From positions 3,675,001-3,739,000 of the forward strand of contig NZ_CP090423.1 in NCBI RefSeq assembly GCF_023518235.1: a stretch of DNA of 64,000 nucleotides, in the 5' to 3' direction. The DNA comes from Stenotrophomonas maltophilia (GTDB taxonomy: Bacteria; Pseudomonadota; Gammaproteobacteria; Xanthomonadales; Xanthomonadaceae). Both the position numbers and the translations under genes were made by a program. Below, one piece after another: positions 43,919-55,908 of this stretch. The notes under the pieces are model-generated. The model worked only from the letters and a program-made list of their open reading frames with translations. It did not search any database and was not told where the DNA came from. Each line of letters begins with the position of its first letter. Position 1 is the stretch's first letter.

Positions 43919-44854
43919 ATGACCACCCCGCGCTGGCGCCTGATCCTCAACGGCAAGTCCGCAGGCAATGACCAACTGCGCGACGCGGTCGGCCTTTGGC
44001 GCGGGCAGGGCGTACAGCTGGAAGTGCGGGTGACCTGGGAGGATGGCGACGCCGAGCGCTACGTGGCCGAGGCGATCGATCATGGGGTGGACGTGATCGT
44101 GGCCGCCGGAGGCGATGGCACGCTCAGCGCCGTGGCCGAAACCTTGGCCCATCGCGACGAAGCGGCCGAGGCGCTGCCCTCGCTGGCGCTGGTGCCAATG
44201 GGCACCGCCAACGATTTCGCCGCCGCCGCCGGCATTCCCACCGAGCCGCAGGACGCCTTCGCGTTGATCGGCCAGGTGGCCCCTCACGTCATCGATCTGC
44301 TGCGCGTGGACGCCGATGGCACGCCCTGGTGGTGCGCCAATCTGGCCAGCGGCGGCTTCGGCACGCAGGTCACCGTGGAGACCGATGCCGGGCTGAAGAA
44401 GATGCTGGGCGGTCTGGCCTATGTGATCACCGGCATCGCCAAACTGGGGCGCATCGAGCCGATCAACGCGCGCCTGTCGGGCCCGGATTTCGAATGGGAA
44501 GGCGACTTCATCGCGCTGGGCATCGGCAACGGGCGCCAGGCCGGTGGCGGCCAGCAGCTGTGCCCGCAGGCGCTGATCGACGATGGCCTGCTGGATGTGA
44601 CGGTGCTTCCGGAGCTGGAGGGTGAAGTGGCTGCCACCCTTGGCCAGATGTTGAAGTCCGGCACCCAGGCCGCGCTGGAACAGTTGGCTACGCGTGCGCG
44701 CCTGCCGTGGCTGCAGATCGACGCGCCGAAGACGCTGACCCTGAACCTGGACGGCGAGCCGGTGCAGGCCCGGCAGTTCCGCATCGACTGCGTGGCGGGC
44801 CGGGTGCGCATGCATCTGCCGGCCGGTTGCCCGTTGCTGGGCGGGCAGGGGTAG
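43919..44854 (+). CDS. YegS/DgkB-type lipid kinase
   Basis: 311 residues. Diacylglycerol-kinase catalytic fold with [13 protein letters not shown] (nucleotide loop) and [11 protein letters not shown] in the first domain, and [12 protein letters not shown] in the second. Phosphorylates a lipid such as phosphatidylglycerol or diacylglycerol; E. coli YegS is the best-known relative. No transmembrane helix, probably peripheral at the membrane. Followed by the trpE leader region. The TAG stop and downstream CGCCGACTCTGCCGG may be a decayed GTAG repeat. Confidence 0.87.
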
Positions 44855-44949
44855 CGCCGACTCTGCCGGTCCCCGCCGCCGGCCCGGCGCTTGCCGTGGT
44901 TCAGGTTCACAGGGTTTCCCTCCCGCCGATCCTGCGATACAGTCAAGGG

Positions 44950-45099
44950 GTGTCCAGCCTGACGACCCCGCATACCCTTTCTTCCGCACGCCGTTGGTGG
45001 CGATGGTGGCCCGTTGCCGTCGTCCGCCCCCATAACGCTGTGTCCCGGAAGGAAAGTCGTCTTGAATTCGCACGCTCAGTTTCAGCTGCAGGCCGCTGA
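44950..45099 (+). CDS. Putative trp leader peptide, overlaps trpE
   Basis: A 49-codon frame from a GTG at 44950, reading MSSLTTPHTLSSARR and then WWRWW at codons 16-20 (Trp codons 44995-45000 and 45004-45009), ending 38 bases inside trpE (TGA 45097-45099). Four Trp codons in five just before trpE are characteristic of leader-peptide control. The start is weak by classical rules: AAGGGG directly abuts the GTG. A TACAGT -10-like box at 44938-44943 would put the RNA 5' end at or near the GTG, so translation might be leaderless, as known for some Xanthomonadaceae transcripts. The role is inferred. Confidence 0.55.
   Translation: MSSLTTPHTLSSARRWWRWWPVAVVRPHNAVSRKESRLEFARSVSAAGR
44961..45061 (+). 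promoter_or_regulatory. Candidate translational attenuator sequestering the trpE ribosome site
   Basis: CTTTCTTCCG (44977-44986) is complementary to CGGAAGGAAAG (45046-45056), the trpE Shine-Dalgarno region, giving ten pairs with one bulged G. Outside it, GACGA (44961-44965) can pair with TCGTC (45057-45061), which abuts the TTG start at 45062. The Trp codons lie in the loop. A ribosome stalled there would cover the 5' arm and free the trpE site. GTCGTC also occurs at 45019-45024 as a rival partner for GACGAC. No U-tailed terminator is visible. Seen by eye; no folding energy was computed. Confidence 0.5.
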
Positions 45100-46537
45100 A
45101 GGCCACACCCATATTCCCGTCGTCCGCGAAGTGCTGTCCGACCTGGACACGCCGCTTTCGGTCTATCTGAAGCTCGCCGACGGCCCCAATACCTACCTGT
45201 TTGAATCCGTCGAAGGCGGCGAGCGCTTTGGTCGTTACTCGATCATCGGCCTGCCGGCGCGCCGCGTGTACGCCTTCCACGGTCACACGCTGACCGTGCG
45301 CGAGGACGGCCAGGTGGTGGACACCCGCGAGGTGGCCGACCCGTTTGCCGAGGTCGAGGCGCTGCGCAGCGCCCACTCGGTGCCCAAGCTGGAGGGCCTG
45401 CCGGGCTTCACTGGTGGGCTGGTCGGCTGGTTCGGTTTCGAGTGCATCGGCTACATCGAACCGCGTCTGGCACCGCCGGCCGGCCGCGATGAGCTGGGCA
45501 CCCCGGACATCCTGCTGCTGGATTCCAACGAGCTGGCGGTGTTCGACAATCTCAAGGGCCGGCTGTACCTGATCGTGCATGCCGACCCGCGTGTCGACGG
45601 TGCCTTCGAACAGGCGCAGGCACGCCTGGATGCGCTGACTGCGAAGCTGCGTGCACCGGGCGCCGGCTATCCGGCGCCGCTCAACAGCGACGTGCTGGAC
45701 GAGTCCGATTTCGTCTCCGGTTTCACCCGCGAAGGCTTCGTCGATGCGGTCCAGCGCAGCAAGGAGTACATCCGCGCCGGTGACATCTTCCAGGTGGTGC
45801 TGAGCCAGCGCCTGAGCGTGCCGTTCAAGGCGCGCCCGGTGGATGTGTACCGTGCGCTGCGCGCATTGAATCCGTCGCCGTACATGTACTTCCTCGATGT
45901 CGGCGACCTGCAGGTGGTCGGTTCGTCGCCGGAAATCCTGGTGCGTCTGCAGGATGGGGAAGTGACCGTGCGCCCGATCGCCGGCACCCGCCCGCGCGGC
46001 GCCACCGTCGAGCAGGACCTGGCGCTGGAAGCCGAGCTGCTGGCCGATCCGAAGGAACGCGCCGAGCACCTGATGCTGATCGACCTCGGCCGCAACGATG
46101 CCGGCCGCGTATCCAAGGCCGGCACCGTGGAAGTGGGCGAGCAGTTCGTGATCGAGCGCTACAGCCACGTCATGCACATCGTCAGCGAAGTGACCGGGCA
46201 GCTGCAGCCGGGCCTGAGCTATGCCGACGTGCTGCGTGCCACCTTCCCGGCCGGTACGGTCAGTGGCGCGCCGAAGATCCGCGCGCTGGAAGTGATCCGC
46301 GAGCTGGAACCGATCAAGCGCAATGTGTATGCCGGCAGCATTGGCTACATCGGCTGGCACGGCGATGCCGATACCGCAATCGCGATCCGCACCGCGGTGA
46401 TCAAGGACGGCCGCCTGTACGTTCAGGCCGGCGCCGGCATCGTCTACGACTCGGACCCGGACAAGGAATGGGACGAGACGATGAACAAGGGCCGCGCCCT
46501 GTTCCGCGCCGTCGCCCAGGCCGCCAAGGGGTTGTGA
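45062..46537 (+). CDS. trpE: Anthranilate synthase component I
   Basis: 491 residues from the TTG at 45062, spaced eight bases from GGAAGGA; the Xanthomonadaceae N-terminus (QAAEGHTHIPVVREVLSDLDTPLSVYLKL) fits this start. LLESVEGG-type sequence (FESVEGGERFGRYSIIG) is part of the Trp feedback site. Chorismate-binding core: RPIAGTRPRG, LIDLGRNDAGRV, FPAGTVSGAPKIRA and YIGWHGD...QAGAGIVYDSDP. Converts chorismate plus ammonia from TrpG into anthranilate. A SIMPL gene and trpG follow. Confidence 0.95.
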   Translation: MNSHAQFQLQAAEGHTHIPVVREVLSDLDTPLSVYLKLADGPNTYLFESVEGGERFGRYSIIGLPARRVYAFHGHTLTVREDGQVVDTREVADPFAEVEALRSAHSVPKLEGLPGFTGGLVGWFGFECIGYIEPRLAPPAGRDELGTPDILLLDSNELAVFDNLKGRLYLIVHADPRVDGAFEQAQARLDALTAKLRAPGAGYPAPLNSDVLDESDFVSGFTREGFVDAVQRSKEYIRAGDIFQVVLSQRLSVPFKARPVDVYRALRALNPSPYMYFLDVGDLQVVGSSPEILVRLQDGEVTVRPIAGTRPRGATVEQDLALEAELLADPKERAEHLMLIDLGRNDAGRVSKAGTVEVGEQFVIERYSHVMHIVSEVTGQLQPGLSYADVLRATFPAGTVSGAPKIRALEVIRELEPIKRNVYAGSIGYIGWHGDADTAIAIRTAVIKDGRLYVQAGAGIVYDSDPDKEWDETMNKGRALFRAVAQAAKGL

Positions 46538-46604
46538 GCCTTTCCGTGCCGTGGCCTGCGCCGCGGCACCTTCCGCTGTTCCCGTTCACGACAAGGAGTA
46601 CCGC

Positions 46605-47393
46605 ATGAAGCTGCTGAGCGCATTGCTGTGGTCGTCACTGCTGGCCACGATGGCCCCGTCTGCGTGGGCGCAGGCCAATACCATTCCCTCGCAGCCGCAC
46701 CTGCTGGTGAAGGGCAGTGCCGAGCGCCAGGTCATGCCGGATCGCTTCGGTGTCTTGGTCCGGCTCGACTCGGTGGACATGAAGACCGAAGCGGCCCGCA
46801 GGCGCGTCCAGGAAAATGGCCGCCAGGTCATGGCGCTGTTCAAGCGCCATGGTGCAGTGGCCGACAGCATCAAGGCCGAGAACCTGCAGGTCAGTCCGCA
46901 GAGCCGGTACAAGGATGGAGAGAGCGTCTTCATCGGCGTCTCGGTCAGCCAGTCGTTGAGCGCCAGTTTCGCTGATGGCGAAAGCCTGCAGCGCTTCCTC
47001 GGCGCACTGCAGGCAAGCAGGGAAGTACAGGTTTCCACGCAGAGCCCTACCTATTCCGCAGCATCGAAGCTGCGCGCCGAACTGAAGGCTGAGGCCGCCC
47101 AGCAGACCCGCGAATCGGCAGCGGGCCTGGCCGGTGCCTATGGCGCGAAGGTCATCGGCCTGTACAGCATTTCCGACGTCGCCCCTGACTTTGCCTATGG
47201 CGTGCAGGCCGGCGATTGGCCACGCGGCCAGAACGGGCCGAGTGCGCTCAAGAACCTCTCCCCGCCCAAGCCAGGCCCGGTGTCGGCGCCGCCGCAGGGC
47301 GGCTTCAATTACAGCGGCGAAGTCATTGCCTCCGGCCCCATCACCTACACCGAAAACGTATACGCCATTTTCCTGATAAGCGACGGAACCTGA
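46605..47393 (+). CDS. Periplasmic SIMPL (DUF541) domain protein
   Basis: 262 residues from the ATG at 46605 (site AAGGAG). Signal peptide [28 protein letters not shown] domain from about 35 to 255 with [23 protein letters not shown] at the start and [22 protein letters not shown] at the end. Relatives (E. coli YggE, mammalian SIMPL) are implicated in oxidative stress or oligomeric periplasmic assemblies. It lies between trpE and trpG with one base between its stop and the trpG start, so it is co-transcribed with trp genes although no link to tryptophan is known. Confidence 0.85.
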
Positions 47394-55704: not shown

Positions 55705-55776
55705 CTGCCCCGGATGGATTCGAACCACCGAATGCCTGAGTCAGAGTCAGGTGCCTTACCGCTTGGCGACGGGGCA
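55702..55776 (-). tRNA. tRNA-Gln (anticodon CTG)
   Basis: 75 bases on the minus strand. Acceptor TGCCCCG pairs with CGGGGCA, the anticodon loop is CTCTGAC within CCTGA/TCAGG, giving anticodon CTG, and the T-arm is GGTGG-TTCGAAT-CCATC. CCA is encoded. Decodes CAG. Confidence 0.95.
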
Positions 55777-55831
55777 AAACGTGCAACTATTTTCTCACTT
55801 TTCACATTGAAAAACAACTTCATTTTCAATG

Positions 55832-55908
55832 TGGTGGCTATGGGTGGACTCGAACCACCGACCCCAGCATTATGAGTGCTGTGCTCTAACCGGCTGAGCT
55901 ACATAGCC
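55832..55908 (-). tRNA. tRNA-Met (elongator, anticodon CAT)
   Basis: 77 bases on the minus strand. Acceptor GGCTATG pairs with CATAGCC, D-arm TAGCTCAGCCGGTTAGAGCA, anticodon loop CTCATAA in CAGCA/TGCTG, T-arm GGTGG-TTCGAGT-CCACC, and an encoded CCA. The paired first acceptor base (G1-C72) marks it as elongator rather than initiator. Upstream of tRNA-Gln by 55 bases, probably one transcript. Ile2 type is less likely but the CAT anticodon cannot by itself exclude it. Confidence 0.9.

Follow-up and report, generated by a model that had tools for sequence, protein, structure and literature searches.

A predicted tryptophan-sensing leader reading frame that overlaps trpE in Stenotrophomonas maltophilia and other Xanthomonadaceae

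The trp attenuator is the textbook example of transcription control by a ribosome on a leader: in Escherichia coli, trpL encodes a leader peptide with tandem Trp codons before trpE and acts through a transcription terminator. In translational attenuation of the ermC type, a stalled leader ribosome frees a hidden Shine-Dalgarno (SD) sequence, the signal being an antibiotic together with an arrest peptide. Canestrari et al. (2020, in Mol Microbiol) are said to have described mycobacterial polycysteine ORFs at which a stalled ribosome keeps the RNA from forming a structure that would hide the ribosome-binding site downstream. These mycobacterial frames are presented as short and leaderless, with the speed of the ribosome controlling downstream translation (PMC9031893, PMC9094748). 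Two further systems are related: trpL-trpE(G) of Sinorhizobium meliloti, where the RNA starts at the trpL ATG and a 14-residue leader with Trp codons comes with a transcription terminator (PMC7298713), and the actinobacterial LEU element, a leader frame with Leu codons and a base stem involving the SD of leuA, in which it is the Leu codons that form the pairing with the SD, a pseudoknot is present and the authors give several readings (PMC1262725).

We analysed a stretch of 64,000 nucleotides of Stenotrophomonas maltophilia (contig NZ_CP090423.1, positions 3,675,001 to 3,739,000; hereafter the window, with all coordinates counted from its first letter) and consider it likely that positions 44950 to 45099 constitute a tryptophan-sensing translational attenuator of trpE, as predicted from the letters and from comparison with relatives. 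The element resembles E. coli trpL in its tandem Trp codons before trpE, but here no terminator was found, sequestration of the SD is predicted and the leader overlaps trpE; since the terminator that defines the trpL type was looked for and not found, we do not class the element as such. The release of an SD by stalling is shared with ermC, where the signal is however not codon hunger. With the mycobacterial polycysteine ORFs it shares cognate codons in a short ORF (probably leaderless here) and, as predicted, control of downstream translation, the differences being Trp instead of Cys codons and Proteobacteria instead of mycobacteria. Here the leader crosses the SD and the start codon of trpE in a different reading frame, and its stop lies inside that gene. 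The mycobacterial leaderless polycysteine ORF attenuator is the closest mechanism that we know of, and by analogy the trpE leader would work like it, with the overlap and the in-gene stop as its own features. No report of this trpE leader was present among the matches listed in open-licence papers, a scope that does not include the comparative surveys Vitreschak 2004, Merino 2008 and Lopatovskaya 2010. An earlier note on this DNA had already proposed that a paused leader ribosome regulates trpE translation; what the present analysis adds to it is the likely leaderless start, the stop of the leader within trpE codons and the published precedent for the mechanism.

All elements of the putative leader lie on the plus strand. 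The reading frame starts with GTG at 44950, at or near the inferred transcription start, and ends with TGA at 45097-45099, inside trpE; its peptide, with GTG read as M, is MSSLTTPHTLSSARRWWRWWPVAVVRPHNAVSRKESRLEFARSVSAAGR. It is preceded by a -10-like element, GATACAGT (44936 to 44943, with the hexamer TACAGT at 44938-44943), the spacing of which to the leader start is conserved in the family. trpE itself, encoding anthranilate synthase component I, extends from TTG 45062 to 46537, and the nearest named matches of its product are those of S. tumulicola and S. pennii. A predicted frame of 280 aa (46551-47393) separates trpE from trpG and thereby splits the trp genes, and two tRNA genes are found on the minus strand at 55705-55908. 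The arrangement drawn in the earlier note could be read back directly from the letters: the control codons TGG TGG CGA TGG TGG, encoding WWRWW, at 44995-45009; an anti-SD arm CTTTCTTCCG (44977-44986) that can form ten pairs with one bulge with the trpE SD stretch CGGAAGGAAAG (45046-45056), or nine pairs without a bulge, one of them G-U; an outer stem of GACGA (44961-44965) and TCGTC (45057-45061) that touches the TTG start; and a leader/trpE overlap of 38 nt. The leader stop is supplied by a GCT Ala codon of trpE (45095-45097) together with the GA that follows it (45095 to 45099 in all).

Folding of 44945-45120 (RNAfold) returned both stems that had been predicted in a minimum-energy structure of -64.2 kcal/mol, the outer one as GACGAC:GUCGUC (44961-44966 with 45056-45061, beside the TTG start), and in addition paired the stretch of Trp codons with the sequence that follows it. 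The energy is unexceptional for the composition (z = -1.80 versus shuffles, with 10 of 200 shuffles as stable), and a single fold therefore proves little. Simple consensus scans between 44840 and 45140 recovered neither terminator-like sites, whose absence had been claimed before, nor sigma-70-like sites, and Rfam gave no match up to E = 10 in 44800-45200. The DNA motif for WWxWW, TGGTGGNNNTGGTGG, occurs 30 times (19 + 11) in the genome versus 24 times for the reversed control; because it is thus not rare genome-wide, the case rests on its position before trpE and on conservation.

For the comparison, TrpE was searched in 41 genomes including that of the window, 198 genomes of the family, 91 of the genus and a number of named genomes, and was matched in 187 of the 198 (11 had none at the cut-off) and in 91 of the 91. 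Of the 187 family genomes with a match, 130 supplied upstream regions, as did part of the genus genomes, while at least one of the other 57 matched family genomes (G004) entered via the 41-genome search; because the choice of the 130 was mostly by best score, the family fractions given here lean towards closer relatives. The resulting 231 loci were reduced to 170 unique Xanthomonadaceae upstreams: duplicate upstreams, loci from other families (L026-L030) and a group that was examined separately (L055-L110) were excluded before counting. Where a set of 183 sequences is used, it includes, as do its 36 members without a called leader, 13 named loci from outside the family (L042-L054).

The sequence CGNTGG was found 40-100 nt 5' of trpE in 157 of the 170 upstreams, and a full leader could be called in 147, of which 49 come from the window's own genus; the start was uncallable in the other 10, several of which resemble chance matches. 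The core cluster contains four Trp codons in 51 leaders, three in 65, two in 23 and one in 8, so that tandem cognate codons ahead of the biosynthetic gene (two to four) are present in 139 of the 147. Leaders were called in 30 of the 40 sampled genera, overlapping trpE in 29, and in ten genera none was called; some sequences in the 'no leader' class (L171 and L199 among them) look like leaders that were missed by the calling rule. An overlapping leader is present in Xanthomonas sp. GPE 39, Pseudoxanthomonas, Luteimonas weifangensis and Stenotrophomonas koreensis (the upstream of which is identical to L021), and in Lysobacter xinjiangensis the leader stops upstream of trpE.

A TANNNT hexamer precedes an in-frame ATG or GTG by 6-10 nt in 147 of the 157 CGNTGG-bearing upstreams and by 6-7 nt in 141 of them; the calling rule for the 147 leaders itself requires this hexamer, and 137 of the 147 have it at 6-7 nt. 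The background for the latter spacing was 168 of 9097 ATG/GTG codons in the same sequences. Because a hexamer at this distance from the start codon has the spacing expected when translation begins where transcription begins, the leader mRNA is probably leaderless. In the window the hexamer would put the start of transcription at or very near GTG 44950, which agrees with the earlier requirement that it should not lie downstream of 45010.

We then asked how the two arms of the predicted switch behave in the orthologues. The expectation that the Trp codons are kept was borne out by the called leaders, whereas the compensatory changes expected along with them were not found: RNAalifold on 27 aligned leaders returned an inner hairpin only (44999-45007, within the Trp codons, with 45016-45024), did not recover the SD stem and contained no pair that had changed on both sides. 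The register of the SD stem seems to shift from one genus to the next, which would explain why column-wise covariation was not obtained, and tests that are independent of register, in which partners are swapped, were therefore used instead. When each of 29 genera was represented by a single sequence, the mean duplex energy of the 5' arm with the SD was -20.88 kcal/mol for true and -17.51 kcal/mol for swapped partners, a difference reached in 0 of 2000 permutations. The controls gave 1179/2000 for the Trp codons with the SD, 141/2000 for the Trp codons with the stretch after them and 31/2000 for the 5' arm with that same stretch, the last of which indicates that relatedness contributes to the effect. 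The effect is also modest, as a genus' own arm was the best partner in 0 of 29 genera (median rank 7 of 29). The unbroken helix at the SD core measured 6.90 bp for true and 5.95 bp for swapped partners (3/5000 permutations, 29 genera), and 6.57 versus 5.54 bp (8/5000, 21 genera) without the Stenotrophomonas-like clade; it was 4 bp or shorter, or absent, in 6 of the 29 genera. Pairs of arm and SD that differ in sequence yet match include TTTCTTCCG with CGGAAGGAA in the window, GCATTCCTTC with GAAGGAATGC in L191, CATTTCCTG with CAGGAAATG in L194 and GTTTCC with GGAAAC in L167. Shuffling of the 5' arm raised the mean unpaired fraction of the SD from 0.13 to 0.35; for 31 of the 35 sequences folded, the native value was the lower one (Wilcoxon p = 2e-8). 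The anti-SD pairing is thus mostly kept, with exceptions in some genera, and in silico the downstream ribosome-binding site is sequestered by the leader RNA according to the folds and the swap tests, though not according to RNAalifold.

The effect of a ribosome was approximated by folding 35 sequences with a 31-nt footprint held unpaired. The median unpaired fraction of the SD was 0.06 without a ribosome and 0.40 when its A site was placed at the first Trp codon, the value being raised in 30 sequences and the SD failing to open in the other 5; with the ribosome on the last Trp codon the openness was 0.26. Mean openness held at about 0.4 over the nine codons that lead up to the first Trp codon and on that codon itself, fell to 0.13 six codons after it and regained about 0.3 from eight codons past it. 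The opening is not specific to the Trp codons alone, being equally high up to nine codons earlier, and by this profile the Trp codons mark the downstream limit of the positions from which a ribosome covers the anti-SD arm. In the window, openness was 0.46-0.48 at codons 15-17 (the first two Trp codons being 15 and 16), 0.10 at the third Trp codon (18), 0.18 at the fourth (19) and 0.03-0.05 at codons 20-25; stalling should therefore expose the SD when it occurs on the first two Trp codons, but hardly when it occurs on the last two. The proposal of a terminator-free translational attenuation by a paused leader ribosome is supported in silico by this masked folding and by the comparison.

We infer the transcription start, the stalling, and the direction and size of the regulation, and the scheme would run as follows. 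The mRNA would begin at or very near the leader GTG and be read by ribosomes from its 5' end. With ample tryptophan, leader ribosomes would clear the Trp codons, cross the trpE start and come off at the in-gene TGA; in their wake the anti-SD arm would pair with the trpE SD over the inner hairpin, keeping initiation at trpE low. When charged tRNA-Trp is scarce, a ribosome halted at the first Trp codons would cover the anti-SD arm and so free the SD, and would additionally end the leader traffic across the trpE start.

A mechanism at the level of transcription, in which Rho or a non-canonical terminator acts through the leader structure or through untranslated trpE when the leader is translated quickly, is unlikely but has some points in its favour. 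Blocked translation of trpE could secondarily expose the RNA to Rho, and in betaproteobacterial relatives T runs stand between a Trp leader and trpE (L096, L097, L099, L100, L102, L104, L107, L109), from which it follows that classical attenuation probably exists nearby. Against it, besides the lack of a terminator-like site in the consensus scan of the window's leader region, stands the finding that a T run of at least 5 between the leader start and position +60 of trpE is present in only 2 of the 147 leaders (once in the anti-SD arm and once 8 nt before trpE), and that T-rich stretches (6 of 8) occur in 9 of the 147, all of them 5' of the Trp codons. Moreover, a terminator model gives no reason to expect the 5' arm to vary together with the SD, as it was found to do.

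The position of the leader relative to trpE provides a second line of evidence for the translational attenuator. The leader extends past the trpE start in 139 of the 147 cases and stops before it in 8. Among the 139, the last Trp codon is found at ten different distances from the trpE start, and the frame of the leader relative to trpE is identical in 138, representing 28 of 29 genera; the exception is L159, sole member of genus g65, which uses another frame and stops at +46. The first stop in the usual frame is encountered within 62 nt past the trpE start in 138 of the 139 (at +35 in 116), and the overlapping leaders as a whole stop between +20 and +62. In the eight leaders that stop upstream, the first stop of the usual frame lies at 158, 650, 959, 1517 or 1595, or is absent from the available stretch (three cases); in the 36 uncalled sequences its position is scattered: 10 have it within the first 62 nt (three of these at +35), and 11 do not have it. 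The usual stop is built from a GCT Ala codon followed by GA or AA. This Ala codon is GCT in 106 of 110 sequences with an overlapping leader, in whose trpE genes GCT accounts for only 7 of the 175 Ala codons between nt 60 and 180, and in 0 of 4 with an upstream-stopping leader and 0 of 3 without a leader; it could not be located in 23 of 139, 2 of 8 and 21 of 36 sequences, respectively, and another residue was present in 6 of the 139. The counts for frame, stop and codon come from related sequences and do not represent independent events. Five genera (g26, g35, g38, g44, g48) have a TrpE with a longer N-terminus; their leader stop, at +47 or +50, is formed at the same TrpE codon, again GCT, which implies that it follows the codon and not the trpE start. 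We read this as selection that ends translation of the leader soon after the trpE start, and a selected stop within trpE would in turn mean that the leader is translated across the SD and the start codon. The leader frame and its Trp codons, the match between anti-SD arm and SD, the constancy of the frame relative to trpE and the selection on the stop are the elements of the predicted attenuator that sequence and comparison support.

The overlap and the in-trpE stop being so strongly kept, they could also point to a dominant role for coupling or occlusion, in which ribosomes reinitiate from the stop within trpE, or leader ribosomes block the trpE start, with the anti-SD stem playing a secondary part. 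The lysis genes of RNA phages are a known case of reinitiation upstream of a stop. We regard this explanation as even less likely than the previous one, because the position of the stop varies from +20 to +62, keeping to the same TrpE codon in the five genera with the longer N-terminus, and thus shows no fixed distance; because stalling of the leader ribosome would reduce trpE expression under purely positive coupling; and because eight leaders stop upstream of trpE, of which three, all from genus g40, nonetheless have their SD sequestered in the fold. These g40 leaders (L134, L164, L173) end right after WRWWP, and their outer stem GUCACGCG:CGCGUGAC takes in the GTG start codon of trpE; the folds of the other five early-stopping leaders are not clear-cut with respect to SD sequestration. 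That a constitutive SD hairpin merely sets a low level of trpE, with the Trp codons as chance occurrences or relics of an older attenuator, is very improbable. In its favour, the residues of the leader peptide are not conserved as a protein (substitutions at codon positions 1, 2 and 3 numbered 72, 108 and 74 in 54 nearest-neighbour pairs, with no excess at the third position) and a single Trp codon remains in 8 of the 147 leaders, but a relic is not expected to keep its frame, its start spacing and a selected stop across 28 or 29 genera.

A more ambitious version of the attenuator reading, to which we give somewhat better than even chances, holds that it is family-wide and wholly translational: a leader threaded through the SD and start of trpE, with a stop kept by selection for a rare Ala codon, in which run-through ribosomes together with SD pairing would form the off state and one stalled ribosome the on state. 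The family of Stenotrophomonas and Xanthomonas then seems to have shifted its trp sensor from transcription to translation, and to have fused it to the gene that is regulated. The selected in-gene stop is an unusual and directly testable sign of regulatory overlap coding, and its signature offers comparative genomics a handle on other overlapping leaders that are missed by gene callers.

Leaders with Trp codons that end before trpE were found in other Gammaproteobacteria and in betaproteobacteria, and the eight betaproteobacterial ones that are followed by T runs look like classical attenuators. Marinobacter and Microbulbifer have short Trp leaders of the WRW type that end at a stop of their own ahead of trpE (L056, L057, L059, L060, L066, L071), and no T run of at least 5 was found within 260 nt before trpE in these six. 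A similar His leader was sought at hisG, where nothing obvious appeared; the His-codon pattern had 16 matches in the genome.

A covariance model built from 27 leaders retrieved the trpE leader in the window's genome with an E-value of 4e-18, the next match being at 0.65. Among 151 genomes of the order, 31 matched at E ≤ 0.01: 20 in the family at E ≤ 2e-7, two weak ones in the family and nine weak ones (4e-4 to 0.01) in other families. Five of these nine and both weak family matches have no TrpE start within the following 180 nt and look like chance matches. In one Xanthomonadaceae genome (G091) the model also matched strongly (5e-9) ahead of trpG, about 4.5 kb downstream of the first match; here TACAGT precedes the ATG of a leader with three consecutive Trp codons. 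This second Trp leader copy (L343, G091:C2:183030-182919, minus strand) reads MIVRMPLPFLGADRDARWWWPSAPVRPAPSSSQEPPRALPLPI followed by a stop, and suggests, from this one genome, a movable Trp-responsive module. After the SD-like stretch of this copy, a GTG opens a frame of 53 codons that ends just past the trpG start and may perhaps act as a coupling relay.
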